Assembly: GCF_900094885.1 (NCBI RefSeq) | Contig: NZ_FMBL01000002.1 | Location: 1-64,000, forward strand | Direction of reading: 5' to 3' | Length of the DNA: 64,000 nt | Source of the DNA: Bifidobacterium commune | Lineage (GTDB): Bacteria > Actinomycetota > Actinomycetes > Actinomycetales > Bifidobacteriaceae | In this document: positions 3 to 14,482 of the stretch, piece after piece | How positions within the stretch are numbered: the stretch's first letter is position 1 | Layout: each line of letters starts with the position of its first letter | Program-made: the position numbers and the translations under genes | The notes under the pieces: model-generated | The model's input: the letters and a program-made list of their open reading frames with translations, nothing else | Databases searched by the model: none | Told to the model about the DNA's origin: nothing

Positions 3-34
3 ATTTCAATCCACGCTCCCGCGAAGGGAGCGAC
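3..34 (-). CRISPR. Leader-proximal type I-C CRISPR repeat; array runs off the left edge
   Basis: This is a 32-bp repeat. On the minus strand it starts GTCGCTCCC and ends GTGGATTGAAAT, with an internal 7-bp stem (CGCTCCC pairing with GGGAGCG) around a 5-nt loop, the usual form of a type I-C repeat. It lies downstream of cas2 and an AT-rich leader. Reading on the minus strand from leader to array, it is therefore the first (newest-side) repeat, and only the first two bases of spacer 1 (positions 1-2) are in the window. Only one repeat is visible, so the call rests on its typical sequence and on the adjacent cas operon. Confidence 0.9.
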
Positions 35-307: not shown

Positions 308-598
308 TTAAACCATCATAATCTCATCCTCAGGAAGGTGCCGTACCTTTCCAATATGATCGATTCGGTTCGAATATTTGGTACCTAAATTATAGAATCG
401 CAAACTATCCTTCTCGGGATCAATGATGCCATTCAACTCGTTCTTTAAAAGCAGCAAATCGGAAGGTGAGACAAGGCACTCAAAAACACTATTTTGGACA
501 CGCTGCCCGAATTTGACGCACGCCTTGGCCACGAGCCGGAGTCGCCTCTTACCTTGCGGTGTTTCAGTATTCACGTCGTATGTGACGATGACCATCAT
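308..598 (-). CDS. cas2: CRISPR-associated endoribonuclease-like Cas2 (type I-C)
   Basis: A 96-residue Cas2. The N-terminus MVIVTYDV is the ferredoxin-fold beta strand carrying the conserved Asp. The family signature continues with the RLRLVAKAC helix and the QNSVFECLVS strand. Cas2 dimers bridge two Cas1 dimers in the integration complex that inserts new spacers at the leader end. The gene is the last of the operon, 12 bp after cas1, and leads directly to the terminator and leader. Two consecutive ATG codons make the start ambiguous by one codon. Length is normal for the family. Confidence 0.95.
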   Translation of the reverse strand: MMVIVTYDVNTETPQGKRRLRLVAKACVKFGQRVQNSVFECLVSPSDLLLLKNELNGIIDPEKDSLRFYNLGTKYSNRIDHIGKVRHLPEDEIMMV

Positions 599-610
599 CG
601 ATCAGCCACC

Positions 611-1642
611 TCACTTCCACATCAACGGTGGATATGCATCCAAATCACCACGCAAAGTACGGACAAGCAGCAGCGCCTGAATATACGGCACCAACCCCCA
701 TGGCATTTTCTCTTTCAAAAACGGATGAGTCAACTCCTCTGTTTTTCGTTTTTGCCATGCCGAAAGAACTACTTTCCGACCTTTCTCATTCAGAAATACC
801 GCACCGTTCTCCTGCTCCTCAAAGTCTACAGGCTTAATTACACCAGTATTGATCAAACTCAACGCAAAACGATCCGCCAAAACAGGACGCAGCTCTTCCA
901 TCAGATCAAGCGCCAAAGACACCCTCCCAGGCCGATCCGTATGCATAAATCCAACATATGGGTCCAGTCCAACACCCTGTAATGCAGCAGTGCAGTCATG
1001 AGTCAGCAACGTGTACACAAACGAGAGCAAAGCATTCAGCCGATCAAGCGGCGGCCGCCGGCTTCTGGCCTCGAAATAAAAGTCATCCTTGCTGCGCAAA
1101 ACCAAATCGTCGAATGCCAAGAAGTAGTTCTTCGCAGCGTTGCCTTCCAAACCCCGTAATTCATCAATGTTGGAACAACCTCCCATTTCAGCAAGAGCTG
1201 AATGCAGCAAAGCACTTTGCTGGGCTATTCTCTCAACATTGACCCTCAAAGCATGATCACGCTTCGTCCGTTCTAACACCCACCGACAGTTGAACACTTT
1301 GCCAAGAATAAAAGATTTGGCTATCGGCAGGCTCTGAGCTTCATTGTCAGCGATACGGAATTGCTCCCTACGAAGCAACACGTTCCGGTTCTTTTCACCG
1401 AAAATCGAACAATAATATCGGCCGTTTGGAGAATAAAACGATAGATTCACATCGAATTCTGCACATTTGCCCATCAAGGCCGGCGACGCGCCCTTATACG
1501 AGAAGCACAATATTTGCTCTATCGACCTGAGTGGTACCGCTGCCAGTTTCTTGTCCCCAATCTGAACAACCACGTTCTCATTCTTGAGCGAAAGATACGC
1601 CTCTTCCGTAAGAACAAACAATGTATTTAATAATCTACGCAT
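611..1642 (-). CDS. cas1: CRISPR-associated endonuclease/integrase Cas1 (type I-C)
   Basis: A 343-residue Cas1. The metal-binding active site is visible as E166 (in LEGNAAKNYF), H234 (in GFMHTDRPGR) and the acidic cluster DLMEE at 246-250. With Cas2 it catalyses integration of prespacers next to the leader. The N-terminal beta domain begins MRRLLNTLFV as usual for I-C Cas1. It sits between cas4 (15-bp gap) and cas2 (12-bp gap). No truncation or missing catalytic residue is seen, so adaptation should be functional. Confidence 0.96.
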   Translation of the reverse strand: MRRLLNTLFVLTEEAYLSLKNENVVVQIGDKKLAAVPLRSIEQILCFSYKGASPALMGKCAEFDVNLSFYSPNGRYYCSIFGEKNRNVLLRREQFRIADNEAQSLPIAKSFILGKVFNCRWVLERTKRDHALRVNVERIAQQSALLHSALAEMGGCSNIDELRGLEGNAAKNYFLAFDDLVLRSKDDFYFEARSRRPPLDRLNALLSFVYTLLTHDCTAALQGVGLDPYVGFMHTDRPGRVSLALDLMEELRPVLADRFALSLINTGVIKPVDFEEQENGAVFLNEKGRKVVLSAWQKRKTEELTHPFLKEKMPWGLVPYIQALLLVRTLRGDLDAYPPLMWK

Positions 1643-1657
1643 TTCAATTCCAGTTGA

Positions 1658-2356
1658 TTATGCTTCGGCAAGTGCTTGCTCAATATATCGTTTTACCGAC
1701 CGTTTCTTTTCCAGCTCAGGCAGACACAGATTTTTTAGCGAACAGGCGTTGCAAGATTTTGTCCGTCGAGCGTTTGGGGTCGACTGACGACTATAGAGAT
1801 CGTGCATTTGTCCATAAGTCTCAATTACACAATTCCTGAGTCCTACATCTAAGTCGACCGTTTCCCTCCGTTTTGTCTCCTTATAAAACAGCGCGGCTTG
1901 AGGAATATCGCAACTAAGCATCTCTTCCAGACACATGGCTTCAGCACAAAGCTGCAGCCTATCTTCATCTCCGATTTTAGAATGACCATGCTTATACTCG
2001 ACAGGATACGGAGCCCAAGTACCCTTACGTCCTTGAAGCTCAACACCTTGAGGGTCCCTGCGGAATTCCACGACATCGCATATTCCCGTTACCCCAAGAC
2101 GACGCGAAAAAACCCTAAGACTGTGCATACGGAGGATATCGCCGCGACTTTCGGATTGTTTGTAGTCATCAGCACGCTTGTGGTCCAAGGACCCCGAGGT
2201 CGTTTGGACATTGTCCTCCCACAACTGCTCAATGTGAATCAAAGCCCATTGCCTCTTGCAAAAGGTATAGTGCTGAATGCCCGCAAGGGCCAGCCAATCC
2301 TCCTCAGGATAATCGGCCAACCCATACGAGCTTCCCAACTTATTCGTAGCTGTCAT
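1658..2356 (-). CDS. cas4: CRISPR-associated exonuclease Cas4 (type I-C)
   Basis: A 232-residue Cas4 of the PD-(D/E)XK nuclease superfamily. Four cysteines that would bind an Fe-S cluster are present: C33 (HYTFCKRQW) and C202, C205, C211. The nuclease core is D94 in GICDVVEF plus E120 and K122 in PVEYKHG. Cas4 works with Cas1-Cas2 to trim prespacers and select those with the correct PAM, so that new spacers are usable by Cascade. Located between cas7 and cas1 in the canonical type I-C order. Confidence 0.95.
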   Translation of the reverse strand: MTATNKLGSSYGLADYPEEDWLALAGIQHYTFCKRQWALIHIEQLWEDNVQTTSGSLDHKRADDYKQSESRGDILRMHSLRVFSRRLGVTGICDVVEFRRDPQGVELQGRKGTWAPYPVEYKHGHSKIGDEDRLQLCAEAMCLEEMLSCDIPQAALFYKETKRRETVDLDVGLRNCVIETYGQMHDLYSRQSTPNARRTKSCNACSLKNLCLPELEKKRSVKRYIEQALAEA

Positions 2357-2385
2357 AATTCGGTTAAAAAGATGAAATCAAATGA

Positions 2386-3240
2386 TCAACGACCATTAAT
2401 TTCGTCATAATGCAAACCGGGAATCGAGTCTGCCTTGACCGTGACCTTGGTTTGCTCACCATCGTCATCTATGCACACCGAACGGTGTACCGCAGCTGAG
2501 GGGTACTGACCAAGTTTGCTATCGTGGGTAAACCAAATAACCTTCAGAACTTCCATTGATCCGGAAGGCCTAGCCGAACTTTCATCATTGATGAACAAGG
2601 TCACCAACGCCTCCTTGATTTTTTCAGCATCTTCGGCCGTAAAACCGGTTTTTTCGGCAAGTTGAGGACTGATACTACCAAATGTCGTATAGACCGCGCG
2701 ACCTGAAACACGATATTTCATACCCATGGTATCGCTGGATTTGGAACCATCCTTGGTGGTCTCACTATTGACGGACTTGGTAATCTGCACGCCATCTACA
2801 GCAATTGGTTCCAGCGAAAATGCTGACTGGATTGACACGGGACCACGGACACCCAGCGAAACAGCATCGGTGTCCCCACCTTTCTTGTATGCGAACACCT
2901 GCCCAAAGGAACGTACGTCTATCCATTTTGCACAAACCGCATCAAAAACAGCATTTTTCTGCTTTTGCTCATCTTTGGGAAGAGTCGCAAGAAAACCGCT
3001 CATTCTATCTGACAATGATTTCGCACCGTCATCCGACCTTTCATCGGACTGCACAAAAAGCGACTCGCCAGCGTCTTGAAGACGATTGCGTATCTTACGC
3101 TTTAGCGCCACATCGGACACTTCCCCCAAACCCTCCGAAGTAGTTCGAGGCCGGTTCCCTCCTAGAGGGTCACCATTCGGATTCGCGTTCGTTACGCTAA
3201 ATACAATCGCAAAATCGATCTTGTTCTGCAGGGTTTCCAT
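2386..3240 (-). CDS. cas7: Cascade backbone protein Cas7 (Csd2 family, type I-C)
   Basis: Cas7 of the Csd2/Csh2 family. The N-terminal RAMP-like strand reads IDFAIVFSVTNANPNGDPLG, followed by the GNRPRTT segment typical of the family. About six to seven copies polymerise along the crRNA and force every sixth base out of the helix. I place the start at the second ATG (METLQNK, 3240) because AAGGAG sits 7 nt before it; the first ATG (3246) is too close to that site. The gene overlaps the end of cas8c region closely, indicating translational coupling. Confidence 0.95.
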   Translation of the reverse strand: METLQNKIDFAIVFSVTNANPNGDPLGGNRPRTTSEGLGEVSDVALKRKIRNRLQDAGESLFVQSDERSDDGAKSLSDRMSGFLATLPKDEQKQKNAVFDAVCAKWIDVRSFGQVFAYKKGGDTDAVSLGVRGPVSIQSAFSLEPIAVDGVQITKSVNSETTKDGSKSSDTMGMKYRVSGRAVYTTFGSISPQLAEKTGFTAEDAEKIKEALVTLFINDESSARPSGSMEVLKVIWFTHDSKLGQYPSAAVHRSVCIDDDGEQTKVTVKADSIPGLHYDEINGR

Positions 3241-3242
3241 TT

Positions 3243-5198
3243 TCATTCTCCTTGTTCATTGCTGTTTACAGCAGAATCATTGTTTTTGGTAAATCTGTTT
3301 CTGAGCGCCCTCCGTTGTGACGAATATCCCAACAAAAAGAGCGGAGAAAGCGCGCTGTTATCCTCGAACTGGCGATCTTCAAACATGTCAGTCACTTCGT
3401 CGATGCTGTTTTCATACGCAAAACGTTGCGCAGATTTTACCGACTGAAGATAGGGCGCCAATTGAGAACAGATATTATTCCACGTAGAATACGGTCTTGC
3501 CGCAAAATTGGTAAGCAACTTTACTGCACTCGTCGGTCTGTCAATACCTCGCTTGTAGAGAATCTCGCTTTCCAATTCGTCGGCGAACGCAAGTAAACGA
3601 CCATACAGGTAGTCCCTGTCTTTCCTTTTGGTATCCAATGCCATGGGAATTTGCTCCTTTTCGGGTTTATGTTGATTTAACGTTTTCTTCCAAATGCTGC
3701 AAGCCACCTCAAAGTCATGCCGCCATGCTGCCAAACTGGCATAACTTTCCGGACGAAGTACGTGATAGAAGGCAGAAACGGCAAGCGGTCTAGGTAGAAC
3801 ACCATTTGAGAACATTGCTTCGATAAGTTGCTTTTCCGTATTTTTGCGGAAGCTTGTATATCCTGCACCAGTATGTTCCCCTGGCCCGTATGCACAGTTG
3901 GTTATATCCAAAAACGAGGGTGCGCCGATATAAGGAATGACTGTAGTCTTGATTTTCTCATTGGCTCCCTGCTGTTCTTTTTTCTCGAAATATGTGAGAG
4001 GCCACGATGCCTCTTCATGCCAAGAAGCGACACTTTCCAAGTACTCATCTTGTGCCAACTCAACGTAATAAGTAACACTCAAACGCCCTGTTGTCGCAGC
4101 ATCGAAAATGGCGACAACTACAGTTTTAGAATGTTCAGAAAGCTTTCGACCAGCAGCAAAACCTCGCACAATCCTGTGGAACTGTTTCGCATAATTCGTA
4201 TCGACAGCAGTTTTCGCTTCTTCTACATGATTGGGCTGATCGCTTTTATCTAACACATCGTATTGATGCAAAATGTCATAAGTATTGGCTGAAGGCTGGA
4301 CTACTCGCGTCGGATTGTCTTCGACCGCCCAAACGACGACCGTCTGTTTATCGACGGTCCTGCCATTGTTGCCAATTAACCATTTCAAAGCAGCATGAAC
4401 CTTCTGGCTCGTGTTACTATCAATCCGAATGGCTTCCTGGGCGGATTGGAACCGCCCTCGATAAGTAAAATTGCTTTTGTCGTTTGAGGAAATCAGTTTC
4501 GCGTTACCTGCTGCACCAACAATGTTCTTGGGAAAGTTGGAAGCACTCTGAAAGAACGGCTCTCCAAGCGAATCGGAACCACAGGGAGTCTTCCCCTGTA
4601 TCAGATGATCGATCCAACGCTTCTGCAAGTTCCAGTCCATCCATACTTCGTCCGGCTCGTCGGTAAGCGTGTGCACTGAAAAGCGCACACCAATTTTAGG
4701 ATCTACTTGAACAATCACCTCATGTTTGCCTTCATCACCATCAGCTTCGTTCTCATTCGACTGTAATAGACCTTTTTCTGCAGCGTCATCTATAACACTA
4801 TGAGTCGTTACATATGTGTATATCGCATTGAGCTTAGGATCTTGACCCTTCCAGCTATCCAACAGTTCGACATACTGCATATGCTTTTTGGTATCGAACT
4901 TAGAATCAAGATAAGCAATCTGATCACAAAGCGGGTGCGGCACGGGGTCCTTGCCGCTGCGCCCCATCGACTGCTCAGTGCACGGGATCATAACCGAAAC
5001 ATCCTTGCTGTCCATCTCCATCCCTATAAGATCACCACGGGAATCGATGATGACATGCAATCTGGTCTTTAGCGGAATATGGAAAAGTGGAGACAACATT
5101 TTCTTGGTGTTCAAGGAAGAATCCTCGTTTTCAACAACTTCACCGGACGCGGCTTCAATTGTGCCGTACGTGCCTAGCAACGTGGACCATAAGCTCAT
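3243..5198 (-). CDS. cas8c: Cascade large subunit Cas8c (Csd1 family)
   Basis: A 651-residue Csd1-family protein, the I-C large subunit that reads the PAM and stabilises the R-loop; in I-C systems an internal start within this gene can also yield the small subunit Cas11c. The N-terminus [19 protein letters not shown] and the RLSVTYYVEL and FEVACSIWKK segments match the family as I know it. Its ATG overlaps the cas5c stop by one base (TAATG). It ends at the start of cas7. Length is normal and no frameshift is seen. Confidence 0.92.
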   Translation of the reverse strand: MSLWSTLLGTYGTIEAASGEVVENEDSSLNTKKMLSPLFHIPLKTRLHVIIDSRGDLIGMEMDSKDVSVMIPCTEQSMGRSGKDPVPHPLCDQIAYLDSKFDTKKHMQYVELLDSWKGQDPKLNAIYTYVTTHSVIDDAAEKGLLQSNENEADGDEGKHEVIVQVDPKIGVRFSVHTLTDEPDEVWMDWNLQKRWIDHLIQGKTPCGSDSLGEPFFQSASNFPKNIVGAAGNAKLISSNDKSNFTYRGRFQSAQEAIRIDSNTSQKVHAALKWLIGNNGRTVDKQTVVVWAVEDNPTRVVQPSANTYDILHQYDVLDKSDQPNHVEEAKTAVDTNYAKQFHRIVRGFAAGRKLSEHSKTVVVAIFDAATTGRLSVTYYVELAQDEYLESVASWHEEASWPLTYFEKKEQQGANEKIKTTVIPYIGAPSFLDITNCAYGPGEHTGAGYTSFRKNTEKQLIEAMFSNGVLPRPLAVSAFYHVLRPESYASLAAWRHDFEVACSIWKKTLNQHKPEKEQIPMALDTKRKDRDYLYGRLLAFADELESEILYKRGIDRPTSAVKLLTNFAARPYSTWNNICSQLAPYLQSVKSAQRFAYENSIDEVTDMFEDRQFEDNSALSPLFLLGYSSQRRALRNRFTKNNDSAVNSNEQGE

Positions 5199-5911
5199 TA
5201 TTGTTCCTCCTCCACCGGCAGTAAAGTTTGGTCTAGATCAAACTGTTTGACTCTTTCATGTTCACGAATGACTCTGCTATCCAGCGCAGCGCTACCCGGA
5301 CGAGGAAACTCTATGACGCCGTTATTCATTTGAGGTCTCCAAAATTGGGAGATAAAGTCTTGGTTCGGGTTTTCGTCCGGATAGATGAATGAATGAAACA
5401 TGTAGCCAAGACTCATTTCACCGTAATCATCATAAAAGCCGGCTCCTGAATTAAATTCACAAGGTTCCACATAGCCCTGGCATTCTCTGGTACCCAAGAA
5501 AATATCTCGGCGCCCACCAGCTTTTACCGCCCGTTTCGCTATGTTGTGGTGCTTATTCTCATCACGGTCAGCGGCCAGATCTTCACGTTGCTCATTCCAC
5601 TCAAAGTGAGCAAGCACTTGATACCTGACCTGTTTAAGATATGTATAATAGGAAAGGTCATTCTGATTGGCGTTGTATTTGATGGGACGAATCCCTTTGC
5701 TCTCCGTTTGAATTTTGCCCATCACTCTGACAGCATCGACATACCAGATCAGAGTCGGTTTCCAATATATCCCTTCAGTTATCCCCTTCAACGCTTGATA
5801 CGTAGGCACTTGATAGGAGAACTTCTCACCTCCGACCCTGGTAACGACTTCAGAAAATAACGCATATCTTCCTGAAACCTCATACTCGATGGAATTTCTA
5901 TATTTTTGCAT
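5198..5911 (-). CDS. cas5c: Cas5c, crRNA-processing endoribonuclease of type I-C Cascade
   Basis: In type I-C systems Cas5 replaces Cas6: it cleaves the pre-crRNA below the repeat hairpin and stays on the 5' handle. The Cas5d family pattern is visible in the [12 protein letters not shown] strand, the [12 protein letters not shown] block and the Lys-His pair in [10 protein letters not shown], matching the catalytic Lys-His known for this family. I start at MQKYRN (5911) because AAGGAGG lies 4-5 nt upstream and because this leaves an 11-bp gap after cas3; a longer ORF reading back to 5941 would overlap cas3. 237 residues. Confidence 0.94.
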
Positions 5912-5921
5912 AACCCCTCCT

Positions 5922-8297
5922 TCAGATAGAAAGAAACTCAAGCGGCAAACCCTGAGGCTTCAGCACAACCCCATAGTCCGCAGAATAAAAATCACTGTTC
6001 AACAAGAAAATATCAAAATCTTCGTCGACCTGACTGAGCGCCTCCTGACGCGACAATTCATCATATTCATAAGGAAACAAAGAGACGGTGTATTCCTGCA
6101 GGTGACGCAAGGCGTCGAGCTTTACCTTGAAATCGTCATCCTGCAGTTGCGCCAGATAGTAGGATGCCTGGCCATATTCCACGACAACACTCTTGGCCTG
6201 CTGATCGATGACTTTGAATTTGCTCCCCGCAGTTCGGAAGGCTTGAGCAAATGCGCGCCCATACTCATTGCCGGTACGGTTGCGATAGGACCCCCTTCCG
6301 GCTTCATTCTTAGATAACAAGTCATAAACCGTTGTGCCTTTGCCTGCATCCGGCAGAACGTAATCCATATACGAACCTTGGTCTTTTTTGGCGAAATAGC
6401 GTTTATAGAATTCATGTATCATAAATCCAGATTGAAGATCTTCAGCCGGGTAATCGTACACAAGTTCTTGCGTGATTCTTTTACCGTCTTTGATGTCGGG
6501 CAGGTGATCCAGGCCCCGCTCATCACGTATAGAAAATACATACACAGGTTGCGGAACCGGGGATTCACCGCTTCTGTTACAGCGCCCAGCGGCCTGCAAG
6601 ATGCTGTCTAAACCAGCCATGGCGCGCACGACACGCTTAAAGGAAATATCAACCCCTGCTTCTATGAGTTGTGTGCTTACACAGATAACGGGCTCGCCGC
6701 TATCAAGCAGTGTTCTGGCATACTCGATTTGATATTTGCGGTGGGCGCCGCACATGGATGTACTCAAATGGATCAGCTTGAATTTTTCGTTCGCATTCAA
6801 CTGCTGAAGCCGTCGGAAAACGGCACGGGCTTCTGATTTGAGATTAACAATAGCTAGACAATTTCCACCCTCTTTGGCTCTTTTGTAGACCTCGTCAGCA
6901 AATTGATCGACCGTTTTGTCTTCAGACGAAACGATGATTTCGGTTCGCCTGCTTTGCGCAATATCCTGTTCGGAAACCTGTATAAGGTCTGGTTCCTCAC
7001 TCAAGGCAAGGTTCTTGCGCCTCGTGGTATCTATAAGTGGCTGAGTCGCTGTGCAAAGCACGATTGTGGAACCAAGCACACGGGAGAGGAAGCTGACCAC
7101 CTCGTTAAAAAGATTGACCATGTTTAAAGGCAAGGACTGAACTTCATCGAATATGATGACACTGTTTGCCATATTATGAAACTTGCGCAGTTTTGTTCCG
7201 CGAGAAGCCATAGCAGATTCAAGGAATTGAACCATCGTGGTTACGACGAAAGGATTGGCCCATCGCTGCGCCGCCAACCTACGATTTTCTCGCTGATCAT
7301 CATCATCGCTGATGGACACGCTGGAATAATGCTCCAGCAACGAATCACTGTTTACGGAAATCCCCAGCGCTTCACGGAACGTAGCCGTCGTCTGCTCAGT
7401 AATCGTCAAGTACGGACTGACATAGATAATATGCTGTTTGCCAGTATTTTTTGCATGATGAAGCGCAAACCGTAAGGAGGCCAAAGTCTTGCCCCCGCCA
7501 GTTGGGACTGAAAGCTTATAAATTCCCGTAGGTTTGCCACTGGCTTTCAAGCATTCTTCCGATATTCGTGTACGCATATCGTTAATCAACGAACGGGAGG
7601 TAAACCGCATGATGTACTTCTCAAAGTGATCAATATAGACGTCCCATGAAACGCAATCATTTATAGGTTTGATACCCTTTTCAAAACACATGGCATCAAA
7701 TCTGTCGGCATCAACCAATCGGGAATACATATACTTGACGTACAAACCCATGGCAAAATCGAACGATGAACCTGACGCATAGCCACTAATCGACTTGACA
7801 AGTTCCTGACCATCTCGTTCACTACGCTCAAAATCCCTTTGCACAGGAATTTGCAATTCGGACAAGTTCTTCTTAATCTCCGCCCAACTGTATTTTGGGT
7901 TTTCCTTACACTCATCCGATATTTCATCTGTAAACGAATACTGGCCTTCCGCATCTAGAAAATCCGGAAGATCCCCATGATGACTCGCCACAATCGCTTC
8001 CGTCATGTCTTGCGTTAGCTCTCCAAAGCACCCATCGCCTGCATTCAACTCCGATATCTCGAACGCACCTTGCTTGGCGTGCGGAATCTCTCCACGTTTC
8101 CCCTCCCCCAAAAGCAGGTAACGCTGGAAACTTTGACTGGCCTTGCCGAGATCATGAATCTCACCTACCAGACGTGCCGTATCACTGTACCAAGTTTCAA
8201 ACCCCTCCGCCAAAAGGCCTGTTTCATGAAGATGGTCGTGCAGCGTCTGCAATCTGCCATCGGCGGTTTTCCTCGCCATCAACGGTTTGTGCATCAT
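5922..8297 (-). CDS. cas3: CRISPR helicase-nuclease Cas3 (HD domain plus SF2 helicase)
   Basis: A 791-residue Cas3. The N-terminal HD nuclease shows H20, GEIHDLGK (H48-D49) and SHHGD near 105-109. The superfamily 2 helicase follows with Walker A VPTGGGKT (264-271), DEVQ box (384-387) and motif [12 protein letters not shown]. It is recruited to target-bound Cascade and degrades DNA processively. It is the first gene of the operon, so its promoter controls all effector and adaptation genes. Two ATG codons in a row (8297 and 8294) follow a weak AAAGG. The upstream region holds a putative autoregulatory target. Confidence 0.96.
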
Positions 8298-8329
8298 AGC
8301 CTTTCAAGGAAACATATTTCCTGCTTTGT

Positions 8330-8368
8330 TATATATTAACATATTCTATCATTTCGCAATCGACTGAA
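8330..8368 (-). promoter_or_regulatory. cas operon promoter overlapping a Cascade-type protospacer with TTC PAM
   Basis: On the minus strand TTGCGA (8359-8354) and TATATA (8335-8330) are spaced 18 bp and would start transcription about 25 nt before cas3. The same stretch reads TTC (8368-8366), the type I-C PAM, followed by AGTCGATTGCGAAATG (8365-8350). That sequence matches the spacer-like part of the RNA element at 8483-8560 except at spacer positions 6, 12, 15, 18 and 20 over the first 21. A bound complex would cover both promoter boxes. Promoter boxes are predicted by eye; other -10 choices exist in this AT-rich stretch. Confidence 0.65.
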
Positions 8369-8446
8369 GTTCATATTTCTGACAATATTCGAAAATCCTC
8401 TGAATCTGACTTCGAACGGTTTGCACTAACCCGACAAATCGCCCCT

Positions 8447-8476
8447 TTCCGATTCTTATTTGTATGCAGGTAAAAT
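8447..8476 (+). promoter_or_regulatory. Probable promoter of the CRISPR-repeat-like RNA
   Basis: TAAAAT at 8471-8476 is a good -10 box; a weak -35 (TTCCGA, 8447-8452) lies 18 bp upstream. The predicted start falls at about 8482-8484, exactly where the repeat-like element begins. This coincidence is the main support. Confidence 0.5.
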
Positions 8477-8482
8477 GGCATA

Positions 8483-8560
8483 GTCGCCAAGTACAGTTTG
8501 GCGTGGATTGAAAAAGTCGCTTGCGCAACGAAAAATGCCATTCCACAAGGAATGGCATTT
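8483..8560 (+). ncRNA. Putative crRNA-like Cas-regulating RNA (degenerate repeat, spacer, 3' hairpin)
   Basis: 8483-8514 is a 32-nt degenerate copy of the array repeat: it starts GTCGC and ends GCGTGGATTGAAA like the array repeat (20 of 32 positions identical). The inner stem positions differ, but each changed pair is compensated (U-A to C-G, C-G to A-U twice, C-G to G-U), so the 7-bp stem and 5-nt loop stay in register. A spacer-like segment begins at 8515 with AGTCGCTTGCGCAACG and matches the cas promoter beside a TTC PAM. A perfect 12-bp hairpin (8533-8544 with 8549-8560, loop ACAA) follows where a second repeat would normally be. No protein is implied. Known precedents are Cas-regulating crRNA-like elements of other type I and type V systems; a type I-C case with these features is my inference. 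Confidence 0.8.
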
Positions 8561-8565
8561 CAATC
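8506..8565 (+). repeat. 60-bp exact direct repeat, copy 1 (inside the crRNA-like element)
   Basis: Identical over 60 bp to 9412-9471. It begins GATTGAAA and ends TTTCAATC, an 8-bp inverted terminal pair, and includes the handle, spacer and 3' hairpin of the RNA element. Flanks of the two copies differ. Confidence 0.95.
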
Positions 8566-8827
8566 TGCGAAATTAAAAGCACAGGGGATACCAGCGGTGA
8601 CTTTGAATCCCACTCCTTCAAGGCAGGGCACTTTCGATCATGAAAAAGCCCAACGCGTAAACTTTTGCGTCACACAACCCGCATCTATAAAACATCTTAG
8701 CTCGGCGGAAAAGCTCAATTAAATACATAGGCGCAAAAGGCACAAAAGACGGAATCGCGATACTAAGTAACAACGTCACACACGATTTAGCAGAGGGGGA
8801 AAACTTAATGGCGCGAGCATGCATGCT
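8566..8827. other. Intergenic stretch without a supportable gene
   Basis: Together with the RNA element and promoters this makes a 530-bp gap between cas3 and the small membrane genes. Short ORFs cross it on both strands but have no recognisable domain or good ribosome site. A 14-bp palindrome, GAGCATGCATGCTC, sits at its right edge just after the stop of the minus-strand membrane gene and may help end that transcript. Confidence 0.4.
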
Positions 8828-9160
8828 CTAACCTTCATCCAAAACAGAGTCATTATCAACTGACACAAATACTTTTTTGCGCTTATAAACGCTAGCTATG
8901 AAAACAGCAATAGTGCAAAATATGATAGATGCAATCAACAGCAAAAGCACCACCTGCATATTGCCCACTCCAAGGTGCATCGTAACTCCATTTGAAGAAG
9001 GTGTCGTTTGGAAGTAAACGGCTCCCCAAAGTGCATCCGTACGCTGTTTAATATCGCCAGTGGTAGAAAACATAGCATAAATGAGTCCTCCTGCCAAAAT
9101 CATAAGCCAGAGGGCTATAGCCGCACAGATAGCTGTAAGAATATGCTTAGCTGTGTTCAT
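8828..9160 (-). CDS. Small two-helix membrane protein of unknown function
   Basis: A protein of about 110 residues with two predicted membrane segments: HILTAICAAIALWLMILAGG near the N-terminus and QVVLLLLIASIIFCTIAVFI near the C-terminus. A polar loop of about 45 residues joins them, and a basic-acidic tail follows. The start at 9160 (MNTAKH) has a good site (AAAGGAG, 8 nt upstream); a longer reading from 9193 lacks one. The upstream membrane gene ends at 9147, so the two overlap by 14 bp and are probably co-translated. I do not recognise the family. The position between the CRISPR region and tRNA-Ser suggests accessory content. Confidence 0.6.
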   Translation of the reverse strand: MNTAKHILTAICAAIALWLMILAGGLIYAMFSTTGDIKQRTDALWGAVYFQTTPSSNGVTMHLGVGNMQVVLLLLIASIIFCTIAVFIASVYKRKKVFVSVDNDSVLDEG

Positions 9161-9464
9161 ATCGGACACTCCTTTGATGTGCGTATATACCAAAAATAGA
9201 ATAGAGAACCATTATCAGCAATATAATTATTAAGAAGATAACAAGAGATATACCACTCAAATTAAGCAGGCCTACAGCAAAAAGAAGCAAGGCGCCGACG
9301 AGCATAAGAAAAGCAAATCCAATGATGCTAGCGATTGGATTATGCTTAGTCATAGGAAAGAGAATGCCCAGCATAGTACAGATAATTGTACCAGCAATAA
9401 TCACAAGATATGATTGAAAAAGTCGCTTGCGCAACGAAAAATGCCATTCCACAAGGAATGGCAT
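9147..9464 (-). CDS. Small multi-helix membrane protein; N-terminus supplied by the 60-bp repeat
   Basis: About 105 residues with a basic N-terminus (SLRKRLFQS) and three hydrophobic segments (YLVIIAGTIICTMLGILF, ASIIGFAFLMLVGALLLFAV, LVIFLIIILLIMVLYSIF). The first 18 or so codons lie inside the second copy of the 60-bp repeat, and the ATG at 9464 has no nearby ribosome site; GGAGG is some 35 nt away. The original start may have been displaced by insertion of the repeat. It overlaps the next membrane gene. No family recognised; whether the protein is made is uncertain. Confidence 0.45.
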   Translation of the reverse strand: MPFLVEWHFSLRKRLFQSYLVIIAGTIICTMLGILFPMTKHNPIASIIGFAFLMLVGALLLFAVGLLNLSGISLVIFLIIILLIMVLYSIFGIYAHQRSVRYEHS

Positions 9465-9471
9465 TTCAATC
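9412..9471 (+). repeat. 60-bp exact direct repeat, copy 2
   Basis: Same 60 bp as 8506-8565, beginning at the GATTGAAAA handle but without the repeat-like stem in front. It covers the start of a minus-strand membrane-protein ORF. Sequence on either side is unrelated to that of copy 1. Confidence 0.95.
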
Positions 9472-9654
9472 GGCAGAGCAAGAATCCTATTCAGTCCATC
9501 CTCCAACCCAACGGACTTTCAACCCTATTTTTCACTAATACGCGCAACACCTCTATCAACGTTGGCAATCTGCCGAAAATAAACAGCCCCTGCAGAATCA
9601 TTTGCAATGTAAACAGGACAAAAGTTGAGAGGGAATACAGCTAGAATCGTTGAA

Positions 9655-9690
9655 TTAAAAATGGGTTCCAGATAATCACCCGGAACCCAT
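9655..9690 (-). terminator. Terminator after tRNA-Ser(UGA)
   Basis: A 9-bp stem (ATGGGTTCC with GGAACCCAT) is followed on the minus strand by TTTT. It lies 9 bp beyond the 3' end of the tRNA gene. Confidence 0.75.
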
Positions 9691-9698
9691 TTACAAAG

Positions 9699-9783
9699 CG
9701 GACAGGGCGAGATTCGAACTCGCGGAGGATTGCTCCTCAACGGTTTTCAAGACCGTCTCTTTCGACCGCTCAGACACCTGTCC
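9699..9783 (-). tRNA. tRNA-Ser (anticodon UGA)
   Basis: Read on the minus strand, a 7-bp acceptor stem (GGACAGG with CCTGTCC) and G discriminator frame an 85-nt class II tRNA with a long variable arm. The anticodon loop is CTTGAAA, giving UGA. The T arm carries GTTCGAATC. CCA is not encoded. The seryl-tRNA synthetase gene lies about 380 bp upstream. Confidence 0.95.
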
Positions 9784-13381: not shown

Positions 13382-14482
13382 ATGTCTCGAACTGCGCTTT
13401 TCATCATTATCGCCATCATTACGGCTTGCGTTCTCACGATTGCCGCCTTGCTGATGTGGCGCGGATGGAGTCGCTGGCGCAGAGTCCAGCTGCTGAACAA
13501 GCGTGACGACGACCAGGTGAAATACGCCTTCATCATCAACCCGTCCAAACCTCAGGCGGCACGCGCACGAGTTCACATCGAGGAATTCTGCAAGAGCCAT
13601 GACATCGACGACATCGAATTCATCGAGACGACACTCGAACGTGACGGGCTGGCTTGCGCACAGGAAGCACTGAAACACGGAGCCGACGTCTTGGTTGCGG
13701 TAGGCGGCGACGGAACGGTGCGCACCGTGGCAGGCGCTTTGAGCGGCACCCAGCAGACGTTAGGGATCATCCCCATCGGTACGGGCAACCTTTTCGCCCG
13801 CAACATGGGCATCCCCGTCGATGACATGAACGCAGCCCTTGCCATCGCGACTTCACGCGGCGAACGCATGGTGGACACCGGACGTCTGGCCTTGCTGGAC
13901 CATCCCGAGGACGACCATGCCCATGCGTTCCTCATTATCGCGGGTATCGGCTTCGACGCTGACATGATCAGCGATACTGACCCCGAACTCAAGAAGAGCA
14001 TCAGCTGGCTGGCCTACTTCTCCGGCGGAATGAAGAACCTGTTCGCGCCCAAATACCGCGGCGCCATCACGATCACCAAAGCCGACGGCACCTCCCGGAC
14101 CATCGGCGACGTGCATTTCCGTACTTTCCTTGCCGGAAACTGCGGGCAGATTCCCGTTTTCTCGCTGATGCCGGACGCCTCGTTCGACGATGGCCTGCTC
14201 GATTACGAAATCATCGATACCTCCGGAGGTCTTCTGGGATGGATGAACCTTGTCGGCGACGTCGTTCACCAGACGGTGACAGGGAGAGTGGAGCAAAGTT
14301 CGCTTTCCACCAACTCCACCATGGACCAGGTTCAGGGCACCGCAGCCGAAATCAAACTTGAGAAACCGGCGCTGGCTCAGGTTGACGGCGATATGCTCGG
14401 CTCGACAAGCCATATCCGTTTCAGTGTAGAGCCAAGGTCGCTGCGTGTCCGGGTCCCTGCAGCGGAGAACGCCGCGCAGTAA
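13382..14482 (+). CDS. Diacylglycerol kinase-family protein (YegS/BmrU type), membrane-anchored
   Basis: A 366-residue member of the DAGK catalytic domain family. One N-terminal membrane helix (residues 5-25) is followed by the kinase domain. FIINPSKPQA at about 50-59 is the first nucleotide-binding block, GGDGT (108-112) the ATP-binding loop and IIPIGTGNLFARNMGIP the second signature. These enzymes phosphorylate diacylglycerol or related lipids using ATP. The exact lipid cannot be read from sequence. It is encoded alone on the plus strand, convergent with the DUF421 gene. Confidence 0.85.
   Translation: MSRTALFIIIAIITACVLTIAALLMWRGWSRWRRVQLLNKRDDDQVKYAFIINPSKPQAARARVHIEEFCKSHDIDDIEFIETTLERDGLACAQEALKHGADVLVAVGGDGTVRTVAGALSGTQQTLGIIPIGTGNLFARNMGIPVDDMNAALAIATSRGERMVDTGRLALLDHPEDDHAHAFLIIAGIGFDADMISDTDPELKKSISWLAYFSGGMKNLFAPKYRGAITITKADGTSRTIGDVHFRTFLAGNCGQIPVFSLMPDASFDDGLLDYEIIDTSGGLLGWMNLVGDVVHQTVTGRVEQSSLSTNSTMDQVQGTAAEIKLEKPALAQVDGDMLGSTSHIRFSVEPRSLRVRVPAAENAAQ

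Follow-up and report, generated by a model that had tools for sequence, protein, structure and literature searches.

Why does a solitary, degenerate type I-C repeat stand in front of cas3 in Bifidobacterium commune, and why does the sequence behind it resemble a site upstream of that gene? The window, that is, the whole stretch of 64,000 nucleotides analysed here, contains a complete type I-C operon on the minus strand, identified by NCBIfam profiles in the order cas3-cas5c-cas8c-cas7c-cas4-cas1-cas2, and the repeat-like unit lies 186 nt from the cas3 ATG (Table 1). Comparison of the sequences suggests that the element is very probably a CreR-like RNA, a guide with which the type I-C Cascade would turn down its own cas genes.

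Table 1. Features of the type I-C locus and of the crRNA-like element (coordinates of the window)
Feature	Position	Strand	Basis or comment
Canonical array, first repeat; the contig starts here	3..34	-	sequence
cas5c, cas8c, cas7c, cas4, cas1, cas2	308..5941	-	NCBIfam TIGR01876, TIGR01863, TIGR02589, TIGR00372, TIGR03640, TIGR01573, each over its cut-off
cas3, at the head of the I-C operon; lies behind the target	5922..8297	-	NCBIfam TIGR01587 and TIGR01596, over cut-offs
Guide target, position 1 at 8365	8349..8365	-	52-68 nt upstream of the cas3 ATG
TTC PAM, directly 5' of the target	8366..8368	-	sequence
Putative -10 of the crRNA-like RNA, TAAAAT	8471..8476	+	5/6 of consensus; separated from the repeat-like unit by 6 nt
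Solitary degenerate type I-C repeat, GTCGCCAAGTACAGTTTGGCGTGGATTGAAAA	8483..8514	+	32 nt; stem CGCCAA/TTGGCG
Guide, 17 nt shown	8515..8531	+	agrees with the site before cas3 at 14/15 readable positions among 1-18
Terminator-like hairpin, 12 bp, AAATGCCATTCC-ACAA-GGAATGGCATTT	8533..8560	+	starts at guide position 19
Truncated second copy, 98% over 63 nt	9412..9474	+	from GATTGAAA to TTTCAATC; guide and hairpin, without the repeat stem

Structure of the crRNA-like element

The repeat-like unit retains both ends of the array repeat, GTCGC... and the 3' part GTGGATTGAAA, the latter identical to that of the array, and has a different stem. The folding of the crRNA-like RNA is stronger than that of shuffled sequences (z = -4.5). 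The hairpin behind the guide may act as a terminator; its T-run is short (TTT), it is not among the calls of the terminator scan, and its stem is nearly identical in the nearest relative, L018. In the predicted fold of 8484-8572 (plus strand) the 5' handle GAUUGAAA is able to pair with UUUCAAUC downstream of the hairpin. Such pairing could hide the handle and compete with its recognition, and is counted against the CreR-like reading; inspection of L018 by eye revealed no handle pairing of this type.

A search of the genome with E up to 0.001 gave the element and its truncated copy and nothing else. The copy is probably inactive, and looks like a small hairpin duplication or a MITE-like copy. 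A search of the region 8200-9700 against Rfam yielded no known family at E up to 1.

The guide matches a site upstream of cas3

On the minus strand the TTC at 8368-8366 is followed by AGTCGATTGCGAAATGATAGA, and the guide, which starts at 8515, reads AGTCGCTTGCGCAACGAAAAA. A preliminary description of this DNA had claimed that a repeat-like unit is followed by a guide matching a TTC-adjacent site by cas3, that the TTC touches the match exactly, and that the differences over 21 positions are at 6, 12, 15, 18 and 20. Re-reading gives the same picture, with the target running down from 8365. TTC is the I-C PAM in Bifidobacterium (PMC7284854, PMC5626976), and in Class 1 complexes generally every sixth base of the guide is described as flipped out (PMC11127173). 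Agreement at 16 of the 18 readable positions, also claimed earlier, holds as well: when the region 8298-8482 was shuffled with dinucleotides preserved, just 5 of 20,000 shuffles reached even 13 of 18 next to a TTC. The next-best TTC site in the region matches at 7 of 15 readable positions among the first 18, against 14 for the target. The seed together with the PAM, TTCAGTCGNTTGCGNAA, has one exact match in the genome (1.63 Mb, four contigs), at 8352-8368. Six other hits have two mismatches each, and since a reversed control pattern equally produced seven hits with at most two mismatches, these six are at the chance level.

The same description placed the target over the predicted -35 and -10 boxes of cas3. 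This was not borne out by the consensus scan, which called no promoter on the minus strand at the target, and we count this result against the CreR-like reading. A weak TTGCGA-18-TATATA fits there by eye, TTGCGA being within the paired stretch. We infer that the target site is a promoter.

Co-variation in the genus and the family

Of the 112 genomes in the genus, counting that of the window, 12 have this cas3 (E <= 1e-80), and 11 of the 12 have a unit beside cas3 or cas5 whose guide matches a TTC site at that place. Ten are strict solitary units antisense to the operon; in L021 the unit is more degenerate, with a tail like that of its own array, GATCGAAAC, and a guide matching at 13 of 15 positions. 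The unit is situated between cas3 and cas5 in L022, L024, L025 and L027, and upstream of cas3 in the other strict cases. Each of the ten strict units has a guide that agrees with a TTC site of its own gap, without any shift in register, at 12-15 of the 15 readable positions, whereas the next best site in these regions scores 7-9. No such element was found in L026, which has an I-C operon, and this genome is counted against the CreR-like reading.

The guides mostly differ widely between the lineages of the genus, the exceptions being L024, L025 and L027, which share one guide, and L019 and L020, whose guides are alike. Hence it is co-variation that has preserved the match between guide and target. 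Between the window and L018, its closest relative, the seed changes from AGTCG to AATTA in the guide and in the target alike (positions 2, 4 and 5), and positions 6 and 12 stay mismatched in both genomes. The preliminary description had made its case depend on the seed match and TTC being kept together in homologous loci and had looked to relatives for seed co-variation; both are observed, the former mostly with guides of different sequence.

The search of the wider family matched 30 of 189 genomes. Thirteen of these, with weak partial Cas3 matches (E from 1e-61 to 1e-67), were set aside as presumed other subtypes, and five further I-C loci were read (L055-L059). In L059, cas3 and cas5 are divergent, and a single guide fits a TTC site facing each of them (13628-13710, oriented). 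The other four, L055-L058, have I-C operons with no such element found, and are also counted against the CreR-like reading.

Scan of 111 type I-C loci

We then considered 111 I-C loci: the window, 11 from the genus, five from the family, 14 from the class, and 80 best Cas7 matches among named genomes. The latter are the best 80 of at least 581 by similarity, not a random sample, and include several short contigs; they come from a scan with a Cas7 alignment, the contig scan with Cas3 alone having yielded no relative. Weaker actinomycete candidates (L061, L069, L070, L072, L073) were left out of the counts. A solitary unit was defined by its likeness to the repeat tail of the same locus, or to a default tail where no array was visible, and by lying either ahead of cas3 or in the gap that separates cas3 from cas5. 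There are 42 such units in 41 loci. The scanned regions of the remaining 70 loci, some of them on contigs that end early, contain no strict solitary unit, which is counted against the CreR-like reading.

The seed score was calculated over ten positions, 1-5 and 7-11. With TTC required, 32 of the 42 units match at 9-10 positions (27 at ten, five at nine), compared with 4 of 1,933 decoys at nine and none at ten, the decoys being array spacers of the 84 loci whose arrays could be used, applied to the same regions. By source, loci with a matched unit number 10 of 12 for the genus together with the window, 1 of 5 for the family, 3 of 14 for the class, and 18 of 80 for the named genomes. If no PAM is required, the best site scores 9-10 for 36 of the 42 units, and 29 of these 36 sites have TTC, the other seven being preceded by TTT (three), ATT (two), ATA (one) and CTC (one); a best site with a score of at least nine and TTC is found for 3 of 1,933 decoys. 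When guides were applied to other loci, ten matches with TTC were seen in 8 of 4,620 pairs, all eight between elements with similar guides, and nine matches in 34.

Ten of the 42 units have no TTC site at nine of ten, and this is again counted against the CreR-like reading. Four of the ten, those of L137, L143, L076 and L147, have guides that match at 9-10 seed positions with TTT or CTC in place of TTC; the PAM requirement may be looser for silencing.

Among the matched named loci are those of Paenibacillus, Brevibacillus, Heyndrickxia, Thermoclostridium, Halalkalibacter, a Spirochaetaceae MAG and Psychrobacter cibarius (Pseudomonadota). The matched elements span four phyla, including Actinomycetota, to which the window belongs.

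Position profile of the guide-target pairs

Twenty-eight pairs were retained as non-redundant, that is, differing at more than four of 18 guide positions, although they are still related by descent. As positions 1-5 and 7-11 were used for selection, only position 6 and those from 12 onward are free of it. The fraction of matching pairs is 100% at positions 1-5, 25% at position 6, 93-100% at 7-11, 29% at 12, then 86, 82, 71 and 68% at 13-16, 29% at 17, 14% at 18, and 14-36% at 19-30. In numbers of pairs, 26-28 of 28 match at the selected positions and 19-24 at positions 13-16. The profile thus has a six-nucleotide periodicity: the difference between position 12 (8/28) and positions 13-16 (86/112), neither used for selection, is significant (Fisher p = 3e-6). 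Free drift, which the preliminary description expected at 6, 12 and 18, is accordingly seen at 6 (7/28 matching) and 12, and position 18 (4/28) says nothing about it, because pairing has already stopped at 17 (8/28).

A -10-like site (at least 5/6 of TATAAT) precedes the unit in 17 of the 28 non-redundant elements versus 124 of 778 control positions, and a repeat stem of at least four pairs is formed in 20 of 28 elements versus 364 of 2,800 shuffles. A search by tail only found a second repeat tail (at most three mismatches of 11) at 15-110 nt from the guide start for one of 28 elements and in 3 of 28 control stretches; in the window the best one has four mismatches. Since the second tail is no commoner than in the control, the elements look like single-repeat units. 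The downstream hairpin starts between guide positions 9 and 35, with one case at 56, and was not detected in 8 of 28 elements. The idea that all I-C elements have short guides was rejected for this variation; a short guide is a property of some of them only.

These profiles bear on two simpler explanations. An array fragment or a self-derived spacer could have been left beside the operon as a relic without present function, and the degenerate repeat, its single copy and the truncated duplicate at 9412-9474 all agree with such an origin. However, the guides of different lineages differ and yet keep the seed match, TTC and the register, the mismatches gather at 6 and 12, and the stems are kept with changed sequence, so that we regard a relic as very improbable. 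The guide and the promoter might also be local duplicates, one copied from the other with subsequent neutral decay. They are less than 150 nt apart, and copying is a possible route for the origin of such elements. But the similarity has a sharp boundary at the PAM: over the 12 nt preceding it, agreement with the repeat is at the random level (74 of 336 positions), hence the likeness is not part of a longer duplication. Moreover, it ends at positions 16-17 with losses concentrated at 6 and 12, and the seeds of guide and target co-vary in pairs. Duplication followed by mere decay therefore has very little probability.

Comparison with known systems

RNA-guided autorepression of cas genes is already known. 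CreR is a crRNA-like RNA with partial complementarity to the cas promoter, whose autorepression is relieved by competition from crRNAs and by anti-CRISPRs (PMC13131331, PMC12737573); the former names subtypes I-B, I-E and V-A, and the latter refers to type I and V-A generally. The element of the window resembles CreR in being a unit with a derived repeat, here of I-C, that lies close to the cas3 start beside the cas operon and keeps the array ends and a stem. Its match, too, is TTC-adjacent and complete in the seed, is lost after the first 18 positions and is conserved across loci, and the matched site is presumably a promoter. It differs in the subtype, I-C, and in its composition, one repeat followed by a hairpin.

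The 2023 study by Shmakov et al. is said to describe crRNA-like elements in mostly type I systems, as well as type V-A, in the form of standalone repeats or mini-arrays with spacers partly complementary to cas promoters. These elements reportedly often have two repeat-like units, and the study may already list I-C cases. The absence of a second repeat tail distinguishes the element of the window from a two-repeat mini-array. A literature search whose reach ended short of the primary papers, Liu 2023 and Shmakov 2023, recognised no I-C case of a CreR-like RNA.

In type II-A, the long form of tracrRNA likewise turns the effector on its own cas promoter by means of a derived repeat RNA (PMC8730458); the differences are that the effector is Cas9, the RNA is derived from tracrRNA, and the match is 9 bp.

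The element could instead be an RNA anti-CRISPR (Racr), the remnant of a mobile element that mimics a repeat and poisons Cascade assembly. Such an RNA is described in PMC10651486: RacrIC1, an I-C repeat mimic beside acrIC5, is encoded by a prophage of Bifidobacterium pseudocatenulatum and inhibits I-C immunity. Here such units are found next to cas operons in various genera, their guides fit the operon beside them, and the element of the window has no match among 50,697 phage records; a Racr is thus extremely unlikely.

CreTA belongs to subtype I-B. Its antitoxin, CreA, is also a crRNA-like guide with a partial promoter match read by Cascade (PMC12737573), the difference being that CreA targets a toxin gene and the guide of the window a site upstream of cas3. 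That the element is a CreA-like antitoxin RNA with a secondary site at cas3 is scarcely credible, as the only exact seed with PAM in the genome is the one upstream of cas3, and the two small ORFs between the copies, which might encode the toxin, have no family match over the cut-off. These ORFs, of about 120 aa each (8828-9193 and 9147-9506, minus strand), overlap and by eye encode small membrane proteins; the first has a sub-threshold match to DUF4064.

Possible mechanism and implications

In the CreR-like reading, a short crRNA-like RNA would start just before the degenerate repeat and consist of the repeat, a guide of about 17-18 nt and the hairpin. The I-C effector (Cas5c, Cas8c, Cas7c) would load it via the repeat stem and the 5' handle, find the TTC upstream of cas3, and pair the guide with the target at positions 1-5, 7-11, 13-14 and 16-17. 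Since complementarity stops there, Cascade should bind and block transcription without licensing Cas3 to cut its own chromosome. By analogy with CreR of subtypes I-B, I-E and V-A, the most likely effect is such repression without cutting. Cascade would thereby repress its own operon, and the repression would be lifted when the effector is tied up by canonical crRNAs, competing for it, or by an anti-CRISPR.

A broader proposal, tentative and rather doubtful as a whole, is that type I-C systems of at least four phyla share a hitherto unreported class of autorepressor RNAs, built on a single repeat. Some of these, the one in the window included, would have the guide cut to about 18 nt by the abutting hairpin, and Cascade on the truncated guide would bind and silence and be unable to license Cas3; in one relative, a single RNA would control both divergent cas promoters.

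Type I-C is among the commonest CRISPR subtypes (PMC7684278) and the most abundant one in one Bifidobacterium survey (PMC7284854). If the CreR-like reading is true, RNA-guided feedback governs I-C immunity in several phyla. This would explain how cas levels could stay low and then rise when an anti-CRISPR strikes, and would matter for the use of native I-C systems in editing or silencing. The 28 guide-target pairs would then be an evolutionary record of the six-nucleotide blind spots and of the pairing length, about 16, that would separate binding from cutting.

One variant of the arrangement was observed in L112, a member of the Spirochaetaceae, where from 6362 onward (oriented) the guide itself forms part of the stem of the following hairpin.
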